DNA from: a virus
Reading direction: 5' to 3' (one strand)
Length of the DNA stretch: 40,732 nucleotides
Virus record (IMG/VR): IMGVR_UViG_3300017963_000436
Span: 1 to 40,732 of that record
Shown: in pieces, positions 11,386 through 32,183 of the stretch
Layout of the letters: each line of letters opens with the position of its first letter
Position numbering within the stretch: the first letter of the stretch is position 1
Notes under the pieces: generated by a model
Database searches by the model: none
What the model saw: the letters and a program-made list of their open reading frames with translations, nothing else
Told to the model about the DNA's origin: nothing
Position numbers and translations under genes: made by a program

Positions 11386-11694
11386 CTAAAAACATCTAAG
11401 ATAATCAACATCAGATCGGTAATTGTTGCACTTTTCGCAATCTATTTCCCTGTTTTTCCGAGCTCCGGCGTCCAGGCATGCGGAATAACTTTGGCAGTCG
11501 TATTTCCGCCACGCCTCACCATCCCTTGATTTCGGCCAACCCCCTTCCGGGATATAGTTTTCCAGGTCTTTCGAGCGGATCTTTATTCGCCCTTTTATCA
11601 GATAATGTTTCAGCCATCCTTTTTTTACATGGTATCTGAGGGTTTGTTCCGATACGCCCCGAATCTTCGCCGCATCTCTAACTGAAAGTTTCAC
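11386..11694 (-). CDS. HTH DNA-binding protein with Cys-rich C-terminus
   Basis: A 102-residue protein whose first 50 residues form an excisionase/MerR-type winged helix (VRDAAKIRGVSEQTLRYHVKKGWL, then IRSKDLENY). The rest has five cysteines (YDCQSYSAC, IDCEKCNNY, LRCF), possibly a metal site. The start is GTG behind AAGGAAACG. It could be a transcription regulator or DNA-bending protein of the early operon. Confidence 0.75.
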   Translation of the reverse strand: MKLSVRDAAKIRGVSEQTLRYHVKKGWLKHYLIKGRIKIRSKDLENYIPEGGWPKSRDGEAWRKYDCQSYSACLDAGARKNREIDCEKCNNYRSDVDYLRCF

Positions 11695-14405: not shown

Positions 14406-14897
14406 ATGATACCCGAAGCAATTGCAAAAGCTTTTAATGATCTCATGCACAAAATGTATGTGGAATCGTACATTTTCAAAGGCATTGCTGCCGCTTTTCG
14501 GAAAGCAGGTTACCCCGGATTTGCTGAATTCGCTAAACATGAAGGCCGTGAAAGGTGGATGTACGGCGGGAAAGTTCGAACTTGTTTGGAAAAGTTCGGG
14601 ATGCCTGTCGCTCTGGCCGCTATACCCGCAGCAAAAACGGACTATGCAAACCCGGCGGAAGCCTTGACCGCTATGTCGAATCAAGATTTCGCTATTTTGA
14701 AATCTATCAAAGCTGGCACGAAAGCCTCAGCGGATGCCGGGGAGCACTACTCCGCCAGTCTGATGAACGACTTCTACGGGAAAATGCTCCACGAATACAA
14801 TGAAGTTGCCGGAGTTTTGAAAAAAGTCCAGGGCGGCAAGGATCTTTCGAGCCTCGACGCCTGGCTTTATGAGCATTATAGCGAAGAAAAGGATTAA
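14406..14897 (+). CDS. Ferritin-like domain protein
   Basis: A 163-residue, mostly helical protein that aligns by eye with bacterial ferritins: an N-terminal helix (AIAKAFNDLMHKMYVESYIFKG), a second helix (GFAEFAKHEGRERWMY), a PAEALTAM loop, and a last helix (NDFYGKMLHEYNEVAGVLKKV). The usual ExxH iron-ligand pair appears as HEGRERWMY, so metal ligands are altered or incomplete. It may be an iron store, a Dps-like DNA protector or a non-catalytic relative. AAAGGAAAG precedes the ATG. Its stop overlaps the stop of the convergent RCC1 gene. It sits behind a terminator and a possible leader peptide. Confidence 0.7.
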   Translation: MIPEAIAKAFNDLMHKMYVESYIFKGIAAAFRKAGYPGFAEFAKHEGRERWMYGGKVRTCLEKFGMPVALAAIPAAKTDYANPAEALTAMSNQDFAILKSIKAGTKASADAGEHYSASLMNDFYGKMLHEYNEVAGVLKKVQGGKDLSSLDAWLYEHYSEEKD

Positions 14898-16468
14898 ATA
14901 GTGAGAATGGTCTCCAAGCTTGTTAGAGGCGAGTCTGTTGTGCCTGGATTCGCCTTTTGATAGTCGTTTTCCCCCCAAGCATAATATCGTCCAAAAACAT
15001 CCACTGCAAAGATAGTATTCTCGCCGCATTCTATTCGAGAGATGCCAGAGATTACAGGAGAGCTCGTGTCCAGCCAAGGATCGGTAGCGCTGTCGGGCCG
15101 ACATTGTTTGAGCACGTTGCTGCCGTAGCAGATCACGCCGCCATTTTTTAGTATGGCGGAAAACAACGACCCGCAGGCGACAGCAGACACGCCGGAAAAA
15201 AGTACACGCGTGACGTCGATATTCTCGGCGCCGTCTGTGCTGTCTTTGTCGCATGCCGGATTATTACCAAGCCCTACCACGTCCCCGTTTTCCTTCAGAA
15301 AAAGCGTGTGATTGGCGCCGATGCCGACGCTTTGGACGGATCCGGTGATTACGTTTGTCGTATCTATCCAAGGAGATGTTTCCGACGGGTCGATTTGTTT
15401 GCTGGCGTTATAGCCCCATCCGATCACGTCTCCGTTTGTTTTTATCCCGAAACCCACCCGATCACCCGCAAATATGGCCTTACATCCGCTTATTATCACA
15501 TTCGTCGGGTCTACCCAGGGGGTGGTAGCGCTTGCCGGGTTAGCCTGCCGCAGCGTATTTCGGCCCCACCCGATTACGTCTCCGTTACTTTTCAACGCCA
15601 TGGAATGGCCTCCGCCCGCTGCAATATCTATACAGCCGGTCGCTATCACGTTTGCCTCATCTATCCACGGGGACGTCAGGTCCGCCGGGTTTGCCTGTCC
15701 ATATTGATTCCAGCCAAACCCGTAAACATTGCCGGAAGCGTCCAGTAGCAAAGTGTGAAACAGACCCCGAGACACTTTGACATAGGGCCCGGCTAATATG
15801 ATGTTTGTGTCTGTCCATGGAGTCGAGGGTTCGCCCGGGTTGGTCTCCGAATCTGCGTTAAGCCCCCACCCGTGATAGGCCCCCTCCGAGTCCAAATAAG
15901 AAAATCCGAGCACACTATCAGAGAGACTCGCTATCTCTCCGGTAAACACGTCCCCGAAATTAAGCAATCCGGTGGAGTCATCCACGCCGCCGTAGACTGT
16001 CACAATATTTGATGTCGAAAGAGCTGTGATCAGAAAAGCTACCCCCACGCCCGCAGGGATGTCCCACGACAAAAAAGCGCTATGGTAGGCGGATCCCTCC
16101 GCTATTCCCAAAGATGTTGAAGTCTGCGGCGATAGCACCCCGATCGGGACGCCCATCCCAGCGGAATCGGCGAATAGGACGGGCGTGATCTCGCAAGTTC
16201 CCGCTGCTTCAGAGTGCGTGGCATGCGCAAAAATTTTTGAGGCCGCTGGCCCGAATTCTATAATATTTTCAGTCAAATCGGCGGGCAGGTTTGCCGCGCC
16301 AATGTCCAGGCTATCCACTGCAGACCTGGCGGATCTCACCGCCCCCATGGTGGCTATTGGATTGTAGATTCGGTTCACCTGGCCATATTGCTGCGGCGTG
16401 GCCGTTCCAATCGGGAACAGTGCGATATCTACCCCCGATAACGCCTCTTTTACTTTTATATCATCCAT
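14894..16468 (-). CDS. RCC1-repeat beta-propeller protein, probable tail/receptor protein
   Basis: A 524-residue protein. Residues 1-220 are a non-repetitive virion-type region (QYGQVNRIYNPIATMGAV, then beta-rich). Residues about 220-520 carry at least six RCC1-type blades of about 50 residues with GDVIGWGxN, AAGGGHSMALKSNG, GANHTLFLKENG and similar motifs. RCC1 propellers bind proteins or DNA in eukaryotes; in phage tails such domains probably act in receptor binding. It is the last gene of the late operon, 10 bases after the preceding tail gene. No signal peptide is present. Confidence 0.8.
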   Translation of the reverse strand: MDDIKVKEALSGVDIALFPIGTATPQQYGQVNRIYNPIATMGAVRSARSAVDSLDIGAANLPADLTENIIEFGPAASKIFAHATHSEAAGTCEITPVLFADSAGMGVPIGVLSPQTSTSLGIAEGSAYHSAFLSWDIPAGVGVAFLITALSTSNIVTVYGGVDDSTGLLNFGDVFTGEIASLSDSVLGFSYLDSEGAYHGWGLNADSETNPGEPSTPWTDTNIILAGPYVKVSRGLFHTLLLDASGNVYGFGWNQYGQANPADLTSPWIDEANVIATGCIDIAAGGGHSMALKSNGDVIGWGRNTLRQANPASATTPWVDPTNVIISGCKAIFAGDRVGFGIKTNGDVIGWGYNASKQIDPSETSPWIDTTNVITGSVQSVGIGANHTLFLKENGDVVGLGNNPACDKDSTDGAENIDVTRVLFSGVSAVACGSLFSAILKNGGVICYGSNVLKQCRPDSATDPWLDTSSPVISGISRIECGENTIFAVDVFGRYYAWGENDYQKANPGTTDSPLTSLETILTI

Positions 16469-25851: not shown

Positions 25852-28800
25852 TTATTGAGTCCTCAACCATTTAGACTTTTCGGCCTCATCTATAAAGGCC
25901 TGCACCGCATCTCTCGGCCCGAACCCTTGGACAGGGCCTCCCGGGCCTTGCATAGTAAAGCTGCCCATGTTCGCCATGCTGGGGAAAGCCACGTTGACGC
26001 TGCTAGCGCCTCCGACTGGCCCTCCAGCCGCAAAAGCGGGAATCGCCATTGCTTCCTGCAGTTTTCGGCCCATCTCTGAAAATGGCCGATTGATCCCGTC
26101 CATGATCCGAGCGCCCCAGAACCCGGCGGCCTCATTGTGGATGAACCACTCACCGAACCGGGCTTTCACTCCGATTTCATCCCGCCCGGTATCCGTTCCG
26201 GGCAGTCGGCCAGACGGGTATCGCCGGAAAGTCCCGCCGCTCGCCATACCAAAACCGCCAAAACCGAAACCACCGGTCGCCGCTCCCATGGCCCCCTGTA
26301 ATCTCTCGGCCTGATTGACGGCCGCCTGGATTGAGCTGCCGAACTGCACCATCCAATTCGTGTTTGTCTGGATGGACTCCTGAATCCCCTGCTGTGATTG
26401 CAACAGGGTCGCCTGATATTGCGTCAACGAGTCCTCAGCGGCCGCCCTGGCTTGCTCCATCAGGCGGATGGATAGCTCGGTGTTTTCCCCCATCGTTGAA
26501 ACAGTTTCGCCGGTTTCGTCCCTGACAACCTGCTGTAGGCCAGACGCCAGGTCAATGGCTTTTTGGAACTTCTTGGCCGACTCTTCGGCAAGGCCCTCAT
26601 TCTGCAATCTCACGGCCTCGGCGTAGACCTCCTCGTACTCGAGGCGCCGGTCCTGCCACTCCTCTGCCTCTGTCATCGTTTGCCGCCTGGCCTGCCGGAT
26701 CTTTTCTTCGACCGACAGATTAAGGGCCAGTATCTGATTCTGGATAGCCTCGACTTTGTCAGCGTAATCCTGCCACTCGCCTTTCAGTTGCTCGATATAC
26801 TCGGCGGCTCTGTTGTAGATATCCTCATACGTCTCGACAATCCCGTCGGCCATTTCCTGAGCGGTCGAGAGGTCGCCAGTCCCGAAAGCCTGATTCATTT
26901 CTATGATCTTGTTCCCGAGGCCGTCCGCTTCCTGTGCTGCCGAAAGGAATTTATCCCGGGCGACGTCAATTTCTTCGATGCCCTCGAATTTCACAACTAC
27001 TGATGCGAATTGCTTTTTTAGAGCTATAATTTCTTCTTTAAATCCTCGGTATGCTTCCGTTCGTGCCGCCACGTCTTCGGCAGCCTGCTCCAGAGTCATG
27101 TCGAGGAGATTGACAGAGAGCCCGGCCTCTTCCGCTGATTTCGCTATCTCCCGGAAAGAGTCTATCATCTCTGATATCTGTTGGTTTTGTTCTCCGGCCA
27201 CGTTGGCGTAAGCGCTGGCCATAGTGGCGGAAAATTTTGTTATAGTATTATAGTTTTCCTCCATTATTTTTCCGAGGTCCGATAAGGAGGTTTTCGCAGT
27301 GTCCACAGCGAAACTCGCCGTCGTTCCAAACTTCCGGGCCGATTCGATTACCCGGTCGATCTGCTGGCCGGTTGCCGTGAAAGAGACGGTGAATTTTTCT
27401 GCGGCGGCTGCTGCGGTCTCCCCGGTTTCCTCGGTAGTCTCCCCGAGGCTTTCAATAGCCTGCTCGAGTTCGGCGAGCTGCGCCTGTGCCTGTAGTTTGC
27501 TTTCGACTGCGCTCTGGTATTCGGCAGACTCCCGACCATACTCGGCCGCCGCTTTATCTGCTACAGCTATCAAAGAGCGGATCCGGTATTCCGTAAAAAG
27601 CTTTTCTGCCTCCATCTTTTGCGCTGTCGCCTCTTCTACCGCCACCGTCCCCCGGGCTTCCTCCAGCTCGATGGCGGCAATCTGTTTGCTATACTCCGCC
27701 GCCCGGAAGTCGGTTTCCGCTTTTATCGCAGCCTCTTTTCGCTCTTTAGCGGATTCCGTCGCTTCGATCTGAATGTCGGCGAGCTCTTTTGACTTGGCCG
27801 CCTGGAAAGCCACGAGCTCGGACTCGAGCTCCTGAATTTTTTTCACCGCCGCCGCTCGCTCTTCGGATCCGGCCGCCGTGTTTTTTGCCATCTCTGCAGC
27901 GTAGCTTTTCGCCTGCTCGATCTGTTTGTTCAGGAATTCCTCTTCGATGTTCAAACGGTTTTCGGCGGCCTCCCGGACAGCGGTTTCCCGGATCCTGTCG
28001 GCCTCTTCAGATATCCCGAGTCGTTTGTCGGATTCGCTTTTATAGAAAGCGGTCTGGATGGCTGCCAGGTCTTCAGCGTTCAAGAGTGCCTGAGATTCCA
28101 GCCGGTCGACTTCTGCTATCGCTGCCGCTTTTATGGCAAGCAATTCTTTTTCGCCCGCCTCTTGAATCTCTATCCGTCTCTGGATTTCTTCCTTTGATTT
28201 TTTATAGAGGCTTTGAGTCTGACTCTCGAGCCTCGCCGCTGTATCTGTTTTCAGTTTTTCAACGGCTTTCTGATAGTCTTCTTCTATTTTTATTTTTTCC
28301 AGCGATAGCTCGAATTTTGATTGTATCTCTTTTTCAGCTTCCTCTATCGCCCTATTCCGCTGCATCTCCAGGACTTCCGTCTGGGACTCGATCTCCGCCG
28401 CCGCCACATCTTTCAGGACTTTCAATCTCTCCGCCTCAATCTGAGGGGCGTATTTTTCTATAATCTCTATCCGCTTTTTCTCAGCGTCCTCCAGCAGAAT
28501 AGCTTTGTTCTGGACTTGCTTCTCCAGGGCGTCAAGTTCCGCTTGCTGATTTTTCTTGATCTGGTCTATCTGATAATTCCCCAGATCCTGAAGAAGTTTG
28601 ACCAGGGATCCCTGGGCATTCTTTGCCGCTGTAATCTGCTTTTCGAACCCGGAATCCAGGTCCGACAATTTAGAGACTTCCCCTCGAATTTCTTTCAGTT
28701 TGGCGTTTGTTTTGGATAGCTCCTCTCTCCACTTTTGAGCTTCTTCCGAACTTCTCCCGAAAGATTCGATGGCGGATTGCAAGGAAAGTTCCTGCTCTTG

Positions 28801-30585
28801 TTTCAAGAGCGTCCAGTATCCTCTGGATTGCGCAAGCATCCCGTTCAATTTGGCGAGTTCTTCCGTTGTTCTCGTTGCCAGATCGTCTGGAAGTTTGAAG
28901 TCCTTAAACTCCTCAAACCGACCTTTCAGCTCGTCCAGCTTTGCTTCGAGTTTTCCGGGATCCGGCGGACCGAAAATTATAGCATAGAGATCCTGGACTT
29001 TCTGGCCCACTGTGACAGTCCCGTCACCGAAAACCTGGAGCTGATTGATCAGTTTCCCGATTTCCCAACCTGCCCAAGCTGCCGCCGCAACTGCCGCAAT
29101 TTTAAGCAGTGCAAGCCGCAACTCAGCCAGCACGCCCCCCAGGAAAGACGCCGCCGCTGCCGCTTTCTGTGCGCTCAGCGTATATTTCACGTTCCCGATA
29201 GTGGCCGCCGTAATAGCGTTCAGAACGTCTTTACCCATAACAAAGGCAAGTAGTTTCCCGGTAGTCGCTGCCAAGGCTTGCGCCTTACTCAGGATCACCC
29301 AGGCAGACGCCAGAGCGACCACCTCTGGAGCAATTCCAACGAGCATCATGATCAAGGGCTCCAATTTCATAAGCCCGCTGATAAAAATCTTTGTGTACTC
29401 CCACCCTTCTTTCATGGCGTCCACGAAAGCTGTGGCCCATTCCTCAATCTTTCCGGTAGCTCTCAGTTTCTGTATTGTCGCTGTGGCTTCTTTGATCTCT
29501 TCCCGGAAAAATCGTATAGCCTCAACAGCTACACCCTCGAAACCTTCTGCGAGCTCGATTTTCAATCCTTCGAAAGCGGATATCATCGACCGAGTGGCGC
29601 CCCCGATCCCCGCCTCCATCTGTTTGGCTATTTTTTCCGCAGTGCCGCCCGACTGCCGGAGCTTTTCATCTAATTCCGCCAGCGCTTCCGAGCCCTGACC
29701 GAGTAGCGCTTGCATACCTGGCCCCGCCCGTTGTCCGAAAAGCCTCAGCGCTTCCGCCGCCGTAAAATTGGCGGTTTCGAGCTGTTTCACTATTTCCGTG
29801 AATCCGACAAAGTCCCCGGAGGCATCCTGTATCTGAAGGCCCGCCCCCCCGATCCGGCTCGAAAGCTCCGCCATCAGCTCGGCTTCCTCTTTCGTCGGGT
29901 TGAAAAGGGCGTCCAGGGTTCCCCGGAGAGTGGTCCCGGCCATAGATCCTTTGATGCCGGCGGAGTGCAGGGCGCCGAGCGTCCCCACCAGGTTTTCGAA
30001 CTCGCCGCCCACGCCTTTGGCGATCGGCCCGACATAAGTAAAAGCCGTTCCAAGCTCCTCAAGCGTGGCGTTGGTGGATGTAAAAGCTTTTGTCAGGACA
30101 TCGTTGGCCCTGCCCAAGTCATCGGTTGACATGCCGTAAGCGGCCATAACATTGGTGGTGATGTCGGCAGCGGTGCCTAGCTCCACGGCGCCGGCGGCCG
30201 CAAGTTGCAGAGTTTTCGGGAGAGCTTCGATAGCCTGATTGACATCGAAGCCAGCTCGGGCCAAATAATTGAGCCCGTCGGAAGCCTGCACGGCTGAAAA
30301 AGCTGTCTCGGCCCCCATCTTTTTGGCGGCGTCAGTGAGCGCCACCAGCTCCTGTTCAGTGGCACCCGCCACGGCGCCCACCTGCCGGATGGAATCGTCG
30401 AACTCAGTGAAAGCGCTCGTCACTTCCGTCAGTGCTGCCACCAGTCCCAGGCCTACAAAAGCGTTCTTCAGATTGAAAGCAGAAGAAACCAGACCGTCCA
30501 TGGACTTCCGGACGGTCCCGAGTTGTTTCGAGGCCTGGTCCTTGAGCTTTAAAACTAGTTGCAATGTGGCGGAGCTTGTGGCCAT
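25852..30585 (-). CDS. Tail tape measure protein (1577 aa)
   Basis: It has an N-terminal TP901-type tape measure domain (KQLGTVRKSMDGLV, then the conserved AFSAVQASDGLNYLARAGFD and ADITTNVMAAYGMS). Hydrophobic segments follow near residues 410-510. Very long coiled coils rich in Glu/Lys/Ala (about 540-1150) and a Gly-rich C-terminus (GGFGFGGFGMASGG) come next. Tape measures set tail length at about 0.15 nm per residue, which predicts a tail near 240 nm. Its start overlaps the stop of the chaperone frame. Confidence 0.95.
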   Translation of the reverse strand: MATSSATLQLVLKLKDQASKQLGTVRKSMDGLVSSAFNLKNAFVGLGLVAALTEVTSAFTEFDDSIRQVGAVAGATEQELVALTDAAKKMGAETAFSAVQASDGLNYLARAGFDVNQAIEALPKTLQLAAAGAVELGTAADITTNVMAAYGMSTDDLGRANDVLTKAFTSTNATLEELGTAFTYVGPIAKGVGGEFENLVGTLGALHSAGIKGSMAGTTLRGTLDALFNPTKEEAELMAELSSRIGGAGLQIQDASGDFVGFTEIVKQLETANFTAAEALRLFGQRAGPGMQALLGQGSEALAELDEKLRQSGGTAEKIAKQMEAGIGGATRSMISAFEGLKIELAEGFEGVAVEAIRFFREEIKEATATIQKLRATGKIEEWATAFVDAMKEGWEYTKIFISGLMKLEPLIMMLVGIAPEVVALASAWVILSKAQALAATTGKLLAFVMGKDVLNAITAATIGNVKYTLSAQKAAAAASFLGGVLAELRLALLKIAAVAAAAWAGWEIGKLINQLQVFGDGTVTVGQKVQDLYAIIFGPPDPGKLEAKLDELKGRFEEFKDFKLPDDLATRTTEELAKLNGMLAQSRGYWTLLKQEQELSLQSAIESFGRSSEEAQKWREELSKTNAKLKEIRGEVSKLSDLDSGFEKQITAAKNAQGSLVKLLQDLGNYQIDQIKKNQQAELDALEKQVQNKAILLEDAEKKRIEIIEKYAPQIEAERLKVLKDVAAAEIESQTEVLEMQRNRAIEEAEKEIQSKFELSLEKIKIEEDYQKAVEKLKTDTAARLESQTQSLYKKSKEEIQRRIEIQEAGEKELLAIKAAAIAEVDRLESQALLNAEDLAAIQTAFYKSESDKRLGISEEADRIRETAVREAAENRLNIEEEFLNKQIEQAKSYAAEMAKNTAAGSEERAAAVKKIQELESELVAFQAAKSKELADIQIEATESAKERKEAAIKAETDFRAAEYSKQIAAIELEEARGTVAVEEATAQKMEAEKLFTEYRIRSLIAVADKAAAEYGRESAEYQSAVESKLQAQAQLAELEQAIESLGETTEETGETAAAAAEKFTVSFTATGQQIDRVIESARKFGTTASFAVDTAKTSLSDLGKIMEENYNTITKFSATMASAYANVAGEQNQQISEMIDSFREIAKSAEEAGLSVNLLDMTLEQAAEDVAARTEAYRGFKEEIIALKKQFASVVVKFEGIEEIDVARDKFLSAAQEADGLGNKIIEMNQAFGTGDLSTAQEMADGIVETYEDIYNRAAEYIEQLKGEWQDYADKVEAIQNQILALNLSVEEKIRQARRQTMTEAEEWQDRRLEYEEVYAEAVRLQNEGLAEESAKKFQKAIDLASGLQQVVRDETGETVSTMGENTELSIRLMEQARAAAEDSLTQYQATLLQSQQGIQESIQTNTNWMVQFGSSIQAAVNQAERLQGAMGAATGGFGFGGFGMASGGTFRRYPSGRLPGTDTGRDEIGVKARFGEWFIHNEAAGFWGARIMDGINRPFSEMGRKLQEAMAIPAFAAGGPVGGASSVNVAFPSMANMGSFTMQGPGGPVQGFGPRDAVQAFIDEAEKSKWLRTQ

Positions 30586-30896
30586 TATCTACCCTTTAAG
30601 TACTTCACCCGCTCTTCCGGTGGCGCCCAAACAGCGAGAAAAACGTCACGCACGAACCGGCGACTGTCCCGGGCTTCGGACTCTTCCAGCTCTTCCGAAG
30701 CGATAAGGAAAAACTCTAGCCCGTAGCTCCAGGCGTCACCGTGCCCCGCTCGAATAATTCGGGCGATACTGCTCTTAAGTCCATGAGCAGTCGGGGCCCG
30801 GCTTTCCGCATCAGATCTTTTATGGCCTGCCCGTCGATCCCGAACATTTTCGGCAGGCCCGCGAGAGGGCGGTTGACTTCGATAAACGCCTCCCAC
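30585..30896 (-). CDS. Tail chaperone T-part, reached by -1 frameshift
   Basis: This frame is -1 to the G-like gene and has no usable start or ribosome binding site. Its useful part (DAWSYGLEFFLIASEELEESE...FVRDVFLAVWAPPEERVKYL) runs straight to the tape measure start. Lambda and many siphoviruses make G and G-T chaperones this way. The frame is open from 30896, so the slip site is between there and the G stop at 30716. No perfect X-XXY-YYZ is visible; CATAAAAG near 30820 and GCGGGGC near 30748 are candidates. Confidence 0.65.
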   Translation of the reverse strand: MGGVYRSQPPSRGPAENVRDRRAGHKRSDAESRAPTAHGLKSSIARIIRAGHGDAWSYGLEFFLIASEELEESEARDSRRFVRDVFLAVWAPPEERVKYLKGR

Positions 30897-31162
30897 AACT
30901 CGATCATGCCGGAAGGCGTCCAGCCCTCACGAAAACACTCGTTGATCAGGTTTTCCAGGGATCGCCCGACACATGCCTTGCAAAAGAAATCCAGCTTTTC
31001 CCGGAAACTGTCCCCGGAGATGTCAGGCGTTTTGACCTCCCCGCCGCCGAAGATCATGGACAAAATGTCCTTTTCATCAGCGTCGAGCAGGTTCGCTATT
31101 TCCTTAACCGTCAATTCCTTGACAGTCACCCCCAAAGACTCAATCGTTTTTTCTTTTCTCAT
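30716..31162 (-). CDS. Tail assembly chaperone, G-like
   Basis: A 148-residue helical, acidic protein (TVKEIANLLDADEKDILSMIF, ELWEAFIEVNRPLAGLPKMFG) directly between the tail tube gene and the tape measure. That is the conserved place of gpG-type chaperones that coat the tape measure before the tail tube polymerises. A second frame downstream extends it by frameshift (separate entry). It is preceded by the parS-like palindrome. Confidence 0.7.
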   Translation of the reverse strand: MRKEKTIESLGVTVKELTVKEIANLLDADEKDILSMIFGGGEVKTPDISGDSFREKLDFFCKACVGRSLENLINECFREGWTPSGMIELWEAFIEVNRPLAGLPKMFGIDGQAIKDLMRKAGPRLLMDLRAVSPELFERGTVTPGATG

Positions 31163-31175
31163 GGTCCCCTTCCGG

Positions 31176-31195
31176 ATTGTTCCACGTGGAACAAT
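31176..31195. other. parS-like 20-bp perfect palindrome
   Basis: ATTGTTCCACGTGGAACAAT is a perfect palindrome. Its inner 16 bases, TGTTCCACGTGGAACA (31178-31193), are the same as the ParB-binding parS site used in many bacterial chromosomes. It lies in the 34-base gap between the tail tube and G-like genes. The lack of a loop makes it a poor terminator. Confidence 0.8.
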
Positions 31196-31196
31196 T

Positions 31197-32183
31197 TTAC
31201 GCGACAGCTATTTCAGTGATGTCACAAAACTCCGAATCCGGGTGGTTTTCCAGATCGGAGAGCACCTCCACATTCAACGAAACCGGCGTGATAGCGTCTG
31301 AAATCAAACCGATCGCACTGGTAGCGGTCAAGTTGCACTTCCAGGCCTCCACCCGGTACCGAGGCCCAATGTCGGACGTCCCAATAAACAAGATTTTTCC
31401 CTGGGTCTTTGATCCGGAAAGGACGGCAATCGTATTTTCCACGGTAGTCGGGTAGTCGGCGGAGATATCCACGTCCCCGGTAATACTGCCCGCAGACAGC
31501 GCCCGAAACAGGCCGCCTATGGTGTCGACGTTGTAGTCGGTTCCCAGCACGTACCGTGCGGTCGGCGCTGCGGCGTCATCCACGACGACAACATCCGAAA
31601 CGACCGACGCCCGGGTACTGGTCGCTGTGGCGGTCGATGTTCCGCCGGTCAGCACCTCCCCGGCTTCGAAAGTGCCGGACACGTTGACGAGCTCCATATA
31701 TTTTGTGGCGGCATCCATCCAAGCGATAACGCCGGTGGCGGAAGAAGAGCCGCCGGTGACGGTCTCCCCTATCTCGAAAGGGCCGCCCGTGATGGCCCCG
31801 TGCAGAGCTTTGACGGTTGTGAGGTTGTTTTTCCCCAAATCGACGAACCGATCATCGACCGGTGTCACCGTCTCGCCGTCCAGAAATCCGGCGGTTTGCG
31901 CTCCGGCCACGATATCCGTGCTGTTGAAAGCAATCTTCATGTTTTCGACGGAATACTCCTCGAAGTCCAGGGCGATGGCCAGAGATTTTTCCGTATTGAT
32001 CACTCGGTCTTTTGTTTTGAAGCCCGCCAGACTCGAGTAGTGATCCTCTGTCTCGATTGTCGGCGTCGCTTCGAATTTGGGGACATTCCCCAGATGCAAA
32101 AGACCGGACTCCCCGTCCTCCTGAAAGTACACCCCGCCCTTTCCGTAACTCAGATTTAAGTCGATGTTCGGTGCAAGTGCCAT
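31197..32183 (-). CDS. Major tail (tube) protein
   Basis: A 328-residue beta-rich protein. The tube core is split by a middle insertion holding two copies of a GETVTGGSSSATGVIAW-type repeat (positions about 135-200), a domain I associate with phage surface and tail proteins. The C-terminal part (GPRYRVEAWKCNLTATSAIGLI, SLNVEVLSDLENHPDSEF) fits the tail-tube family of lambda-like siphoviruses. Its position before the chaperones and tape measure is canonical. Confidence 0.8.
   Translation of the reverse strand: MALAPNIDLNLSYGKGGVYFQEDGESGLLHLGNVPKFEATPTIETEDHYSSLAGFKTKDRVINTEKSLAIALDFEEYSVENMKIAFNSTDIVAGAQTAGFLDGETVTPVDDRFVDLGKNNLTTVKALHGAITGGPFEIGETVTGGSSSATGVIAWMDAATKYMELVNVSGTFEAGEVLTGGTSTATATSTRASVVSDVVVVDDAAAPTARYVLGTDYNVDTIGGLFRALSAGSITGDVDISADYPTTVENTIAVLSGSKTQGKILFIGTSDIGPRYRVEAWKCNLTATSAIGLISDAITPVSLNVEVLSDLENHPDSEFCDITEIAVA

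Follow-up and report, generated by a model that had tools for sequence, protein, structure and literature searches.

A putative chromosomal-type parS site between tail genes of a phage contig in which no ParA or ParB was found

Introduction

Why would a phage with no recognisable partition proteins carry, in the gap between two of its tail genes, what appears to be a centromere site of a bacterial chromosome? The question is raised by the viral record IMGVR_UViG_3300017963_000436, whose 40,732 nucleotides were analysed in full and are referred to here as the window. An earlier note on this DNA had drawn attention to a perfect 20-bp palindrome with the parS 16-mer at its centre, and had proposed a parS of host type in a phage lacking parA and parB. 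Phage-plasmids, such as P1 and the extrachromosomal mycobacterial prophages, carry a partition site and encode their own ParABS system. On balance, the palindrome in the window is probably a bacterial chromosomal-type parS kept by a phage that has neither ParB nor ParA, a reading reached from sequence comparison.

Features of the site and its neighbours

The palindrome and its inner parS 16-mer are present as the earlier note had described them (Table 1). ATTGTTCCACGTGGAACAAT exceeds every other palindrome of the window in length, the runner-up being 14 bp, and palindromes of 20 bp or more were found in 3 of 200 shuffled windows. The core, TGTTCCACGTGGAACA, is the sole parS-like site of the window, even allowing up to three mismatches; in a window of equal size and composition about 9e-6 exact copies of the 16-mer would be expected. 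The core is a 16-bp inverted repeat that matches the chromosomal-type parS pattern TGTTYCACGTGRAACA exactly. It is identical to parS2 and parS3 of P. aeruginosa (PMC4368675) and to parS of P. putida (PMC7022226). parS2 and parS3 are the sites best bound by P. aeruginosa ParB (PMC4368675).

The site occupies the 34 bp that separate the genes for the major tail protein and the putative chaperone, 1 base away from the stop codon of the tail protein. The tail protein assignment of the earlier note is borne out by the match to PHROG 807, whereas that of the chaperone is by synteny only, family searches with its product giving no match. As the note had stated, parA and parB are absent from the window: a six-frame search of the contig for ParB_N (PF02195) and the ParA-type AAA_31 domain (PF13614) was negative. 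A self-encoded parABS system, with parA and parB on the element, was thus not found in this contig, which, being linear and without a terminase among the genes recognised, is probably incomplete. An RCC1-repeat protein (14894-16468) is encoded in or near the tail region, and a small HTH protein (11386-11694) has a weak excisionase match. No integrase was seen among the window proteins examined.

Table 1. Position of the palindrome and of the surrounding genes in the window
Feature	Position	Strand	Remarks
Perfect 20-bp palindrome ATTGTTCCACGTGGAACAAT	31176..31195	.	
16-bp parS core TGTTCCACGTGGAACA	31178..31193	.	Within the 20-bp palindrome
Major tail protein, Ig-like domain	31197..32183	-	PHROG 807 (phrog_807), E 5.8e-37
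Putative tail assembly chaperone	30716..31162	-	Label by synteny only; between tail protein and tape measure genes
Overlapping ORF in another frame	30585..30896	-	Inferred; may be the chaperone's frameshift partner
Tail tape measure protein	25852..30585	-	

Search for relatives of the window phage

The tail protein, the head protease/capsid protein and the DUF2800 protein were used in pattern scans of viral and genome contigs, and all matches, where there were any, were distant. In the phage collection there was no DNA match to the window, and the protein matches were all below 60% identity. Three distant loci (L132-L134), which match part of the tail protein only, lack the site. As these searches found neither a close relative nor a host of the window phage, and the distant loci are without the site, the window copy is a predicted parS, the prediction relying on its perfect identity to known sites, its location between genes and the way the class as a whole behaves. 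One parS-bearing IMG/VR contig (L013), whose parS is placed inside a DNA polymerase-like gene, has five replication-type genes in common with the window (23-36% identity).

Distribution of the site in IMG/VR

At least 120 stretches of IMG/VR contain the exact 16-mer, the parS counts being lower bounds. Palindromic controls occur in 10 (half-site shuffled), 29 (one symmetric change) and 54 stretches (same arms); in the last, the parS arms are unchanged and the centre ACGT is replaced by AGCT. When similar flanks are merged, at least 100 remain for parS versus 6, 19 and 39 for the controls. The other canonical parS, TGTTTCACGTGAAACA, is represented by at least 145 sites among the matches listed.

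Intergenic positions were called with a simple, crude ORF caller at three ORF-length cut-offs. Among the matches listed, 39 of 127 exact 16-mers (31%) and 48 of 145 TGTTTCACGTGAAACA sites (33%) are intergenic; for positions drawn at random from these loci the share is about 6%. For the controls the figures are 2/10, 1/29 and 1/54, which is 2-3% for the two larger ones. Whichever of the three cut-offs is used, the parS share clearly exceeds that of random positions, and also that of the controls.

The genes nearest the site in several loci belong to the terminase large subunit, major head protein, head protease and tail tube families. That viral parS might stem from mis-called host DNA was considered; for many loci the viral genes beside the site contradict this. 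ParB_N was found in none of the 50 larger parS-bearing viral records, and a clear ParA-type ATPase in one of the 50. Among 30 records of the TGTTTCACGTGAAACA set, the same search detected ParB_N in 4, so it does work on viral contigs.

Hairpin and chance

In the tail transcript the palindrome comes directly after the tail protein stop codon and ahead of a ribosome-binding site, a location in which an mRNA hairpin could protect or separate the message of an abundant tail protein. In the predicted fold, the minus-strand RNA forms a stem of 8 bp closed by the tetraloop ACGU. We regard a role as hairpin as highly improbable. The fold is no better than that of shuffled sequences (z -0.9), the palindrome has no T-run, terminator prediction is negative and an Rfam search of the palindrome gave no match. 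Neither a stem with a T-run nor an unusually stable fold, by which an intrinsic terminator or hairpin would be recognised, is present. Moreover, a 16-bp palindrome would match parS by accident in only about 1 in 65,000 cases. The same-arm control bears on the class: a hairpin should care little about its loop, and the near-absence of intergenic sites in this control, when compared with parS, therefore argues against a hairpin. Across the viral sites complementarity stops at the 16-mer; beyond it, flank complementarity is close to background. The earlier note had held that action only as an mRNA hairpin would speak against parS; for the class, the hairpin-matched control contradicts such a hairpin-only action.

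The window has one site and no close relative that could show conservation, and the control palindromes also turn up in IMG/VR (10-54 stretches), as would be expected if the match were due to chance and had no function. This is the least probable of the readings considered, given the small expectation per window. With at least 39 intergenic exact sites for the parS 16-mer as opposed to 2, 1 and 1 for the controls, chance is an unlikely origin for a copy that lies between genes. Taken together, the viral excess, the intergenic placement and the pattern of the sites argue against both chance and an mRNA hairpin.

Cultured phages

Among the annotated phages returned in a search with the 20-mer are Pseudomonas phages that have two or more sites apiece, for the most part where no gene is annotated; a control 20-mer matches one Synechococcus phage lineage only, within a gene. 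In enterobacterial phages single matches turn up now and then, the majority of them within genes, and some parS occurrences are thus attributable to chance.

The Pseudomonas phages without ParB carry between one and six parS sites each. Using TGTTYCACGTGGAACA with up to one mismatch, there are 3 sites in NoPa, 6 in SYP, 5 in Ep020 and 4 in UAVern; the reversed pattern has 0 sites in these four genomes and ParB_N was not found in them. For NoPa and SYP, 300 shuffled palindromes gave 0 sites with up to one mismatch. Relatives were chosen by homology to a region of NoPa, blind to parS, and contain 11 sites in 154 kb, whereas 500 shuffled palindromes gave 0.008 on average and at most 2. No site was present in the stretch read of VCM, Kremar and Psxphi15, which indicates that sites are gained and lost. 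The P. aeruginosa phage XD2 has two sites. Changes in 50 Pseudomonas phage half-sites fall at positions 1 and 5, save one at position 8. Half-site position 1 is variable in P. aeruginosa parS; a T at position 5 gives GTTTCAC, a half-site listed in PMC7022226. The changes in the phage sites are, with one exception, confined to positions that are variable in chromosomal parS. Most of the Pseudomonas phage sites are located among small genes of unknown function, outside structural operons.

Sequence identity, viral enrichment and recurrence in phages without ParB support the proposal of the earlier note that a host-type parS can reside in a phage without parAB. Extending it, we lean slightly towards the view that many ParB-less phages, including large tailed Pseudomonas phages with clusters of sites, keep host centromere sites and recruit host ParB, with ParA or SMC.

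Possible roles

If the site is a chromosomal-type parS, host ParB is quite likely to bind it. Once phage DNA has entered the cell, or as long as it persists there, the ParB-CTP clamp of the host would load at parS and slide onto the adjoining phage DNA. Most probably, the phage genome would then be handled as a piece of the host chromosome: host ParA, perhaps together with SMC, would hold it, position it or share it out. This would require that the window host uses this parS and that the phage benefits from the bound protein. Given binding, a role in positioning or retention is evenly balanced against the alternatives, with silencing of late genes and titration of ParB accounting for most of the rest. 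The single site in the window counts against the preferred explanation, whereas Pseudomonas phages often have several.

Titration would turn the site into a decoy: once replicated, many phage copies, each with parS, would outnumber the few chromosomal sites, draw ParB away and disturb host segregation to the advantage of the phage. Such competition is known for SGI1, whose parS copies destabilise the IncC plasmid (PMC10954446), and the several copies in Pseudomonas phages would suit it. We consider a decoy unlikely for the window phage. ParB is non-essential in Pseudomonas (PMC7022226), so the gain is not obvious, and a lone site would be a weak sink until late infection, for which reason a role in cis, in positioning or retention, is favoured.

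Host ParB could also serve as a ready-made repressor that keeps the late tail and head genes silent until the late stage. The location of the window site in the middle of the structural operon would fit, and parS-bound P. aeruginosa ParB reduces the expression of adjacent genes on test plasmids (PMC7022226). However, the Pseudomonas phage sites are mostly outside structural operons, and B. subtilis genes beside native parS are unchanged upon loss of ParB (PMC7022226). Silencing appears very unlikely.

Comparison with known systems

A partition site on phage DNA is common to the window and to phage-plasmids like P1. The latter encode the partition proteins, whereas the window contig and all 50 of the parS-bearing viral records searched are without ParB_N. 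The window site shares with chromosomal parS of the Pseudomonas ParABS system the same 16-mer and the perfect palindrome; it differs in being single, in a phage structural operon and on an element without parA or parB.

The nearest precedent is the hijack of the IncC parABS system by SGI1. This island bears copies of the parS of the IncC plasmid, binds the plasmid ParB, gains stability and destabilises the plasmid (PMC10954446). Like SGI1, the window, although probably incomplete, represents a mobile element without parAB that carries the parS of another replicon, and it would work likewise if our reading is right. SGI1 is, however, an integrative island whose target is a helper plasmid and for which binding and stability have been demonstrated; the phage would exploit the system of the chromosome and is known from sequence alone. 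In an engineered system, lambda with an artificial parS, supplied CFP-ParB forms foci on the injected DNA minutes after infection (PMC13190303). ParB gathering on infecting, parS-bearing phage DNA would be common to both; in lambda the site is an artificial tag and ParB is supplied, whereas the window has a natural site for which the host's own protein is proposed. In the open-licence literature we found no earlier description of a host-type parS occurring naturally in a phage genome, which is weak evidence of novelty.

If many ParB-less phages do recruit host ParB, there would be a general viral route to exploit bacterial chromosome segregation, with the window as one case. Loading of host ParB on phage DNA would make chromosome segregation a phage-host interface, in which a host clamp, possibly with SMC and ParA, acts on the genomes of infecting viruses. 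The location of the near-universal parS between the genes of many unrelated viral contigs without parB would also be explained.

Location of the site in individual loci

In four related IMG/VR contigs (L049, L071, L108 and L109) an exact parS lies about 60 bases from a large ORF, which in L049 is the terminase large subunit. One viral contig (L105, 4324-10457) has five exact parS sites within about 6 kb, four of them intergenic. Clusters of three to five TGTTTCACGTGAAACA sites are seen in the viral contigs L180, L207, L216 and L226; the ParB_N search of the L226 record gave no match.

In SYP (OQ183418, vB_PpS_SYP; L286/L288) identical parS sites with identical short flanks are located at 294 and 107116, one close to each end of the record, so that parS may be inside a terminal repeat. 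In several related Pseudomonas phages, one and the same gene is followed, soon after its stop codon, by a parS variant (L285, 11670; L304, 11599; L308, 11600; L305, 11608; L286, 7655). This gene is annotated as a DNA sulfur modification protein in some of the records, and the flanks of the site differ.
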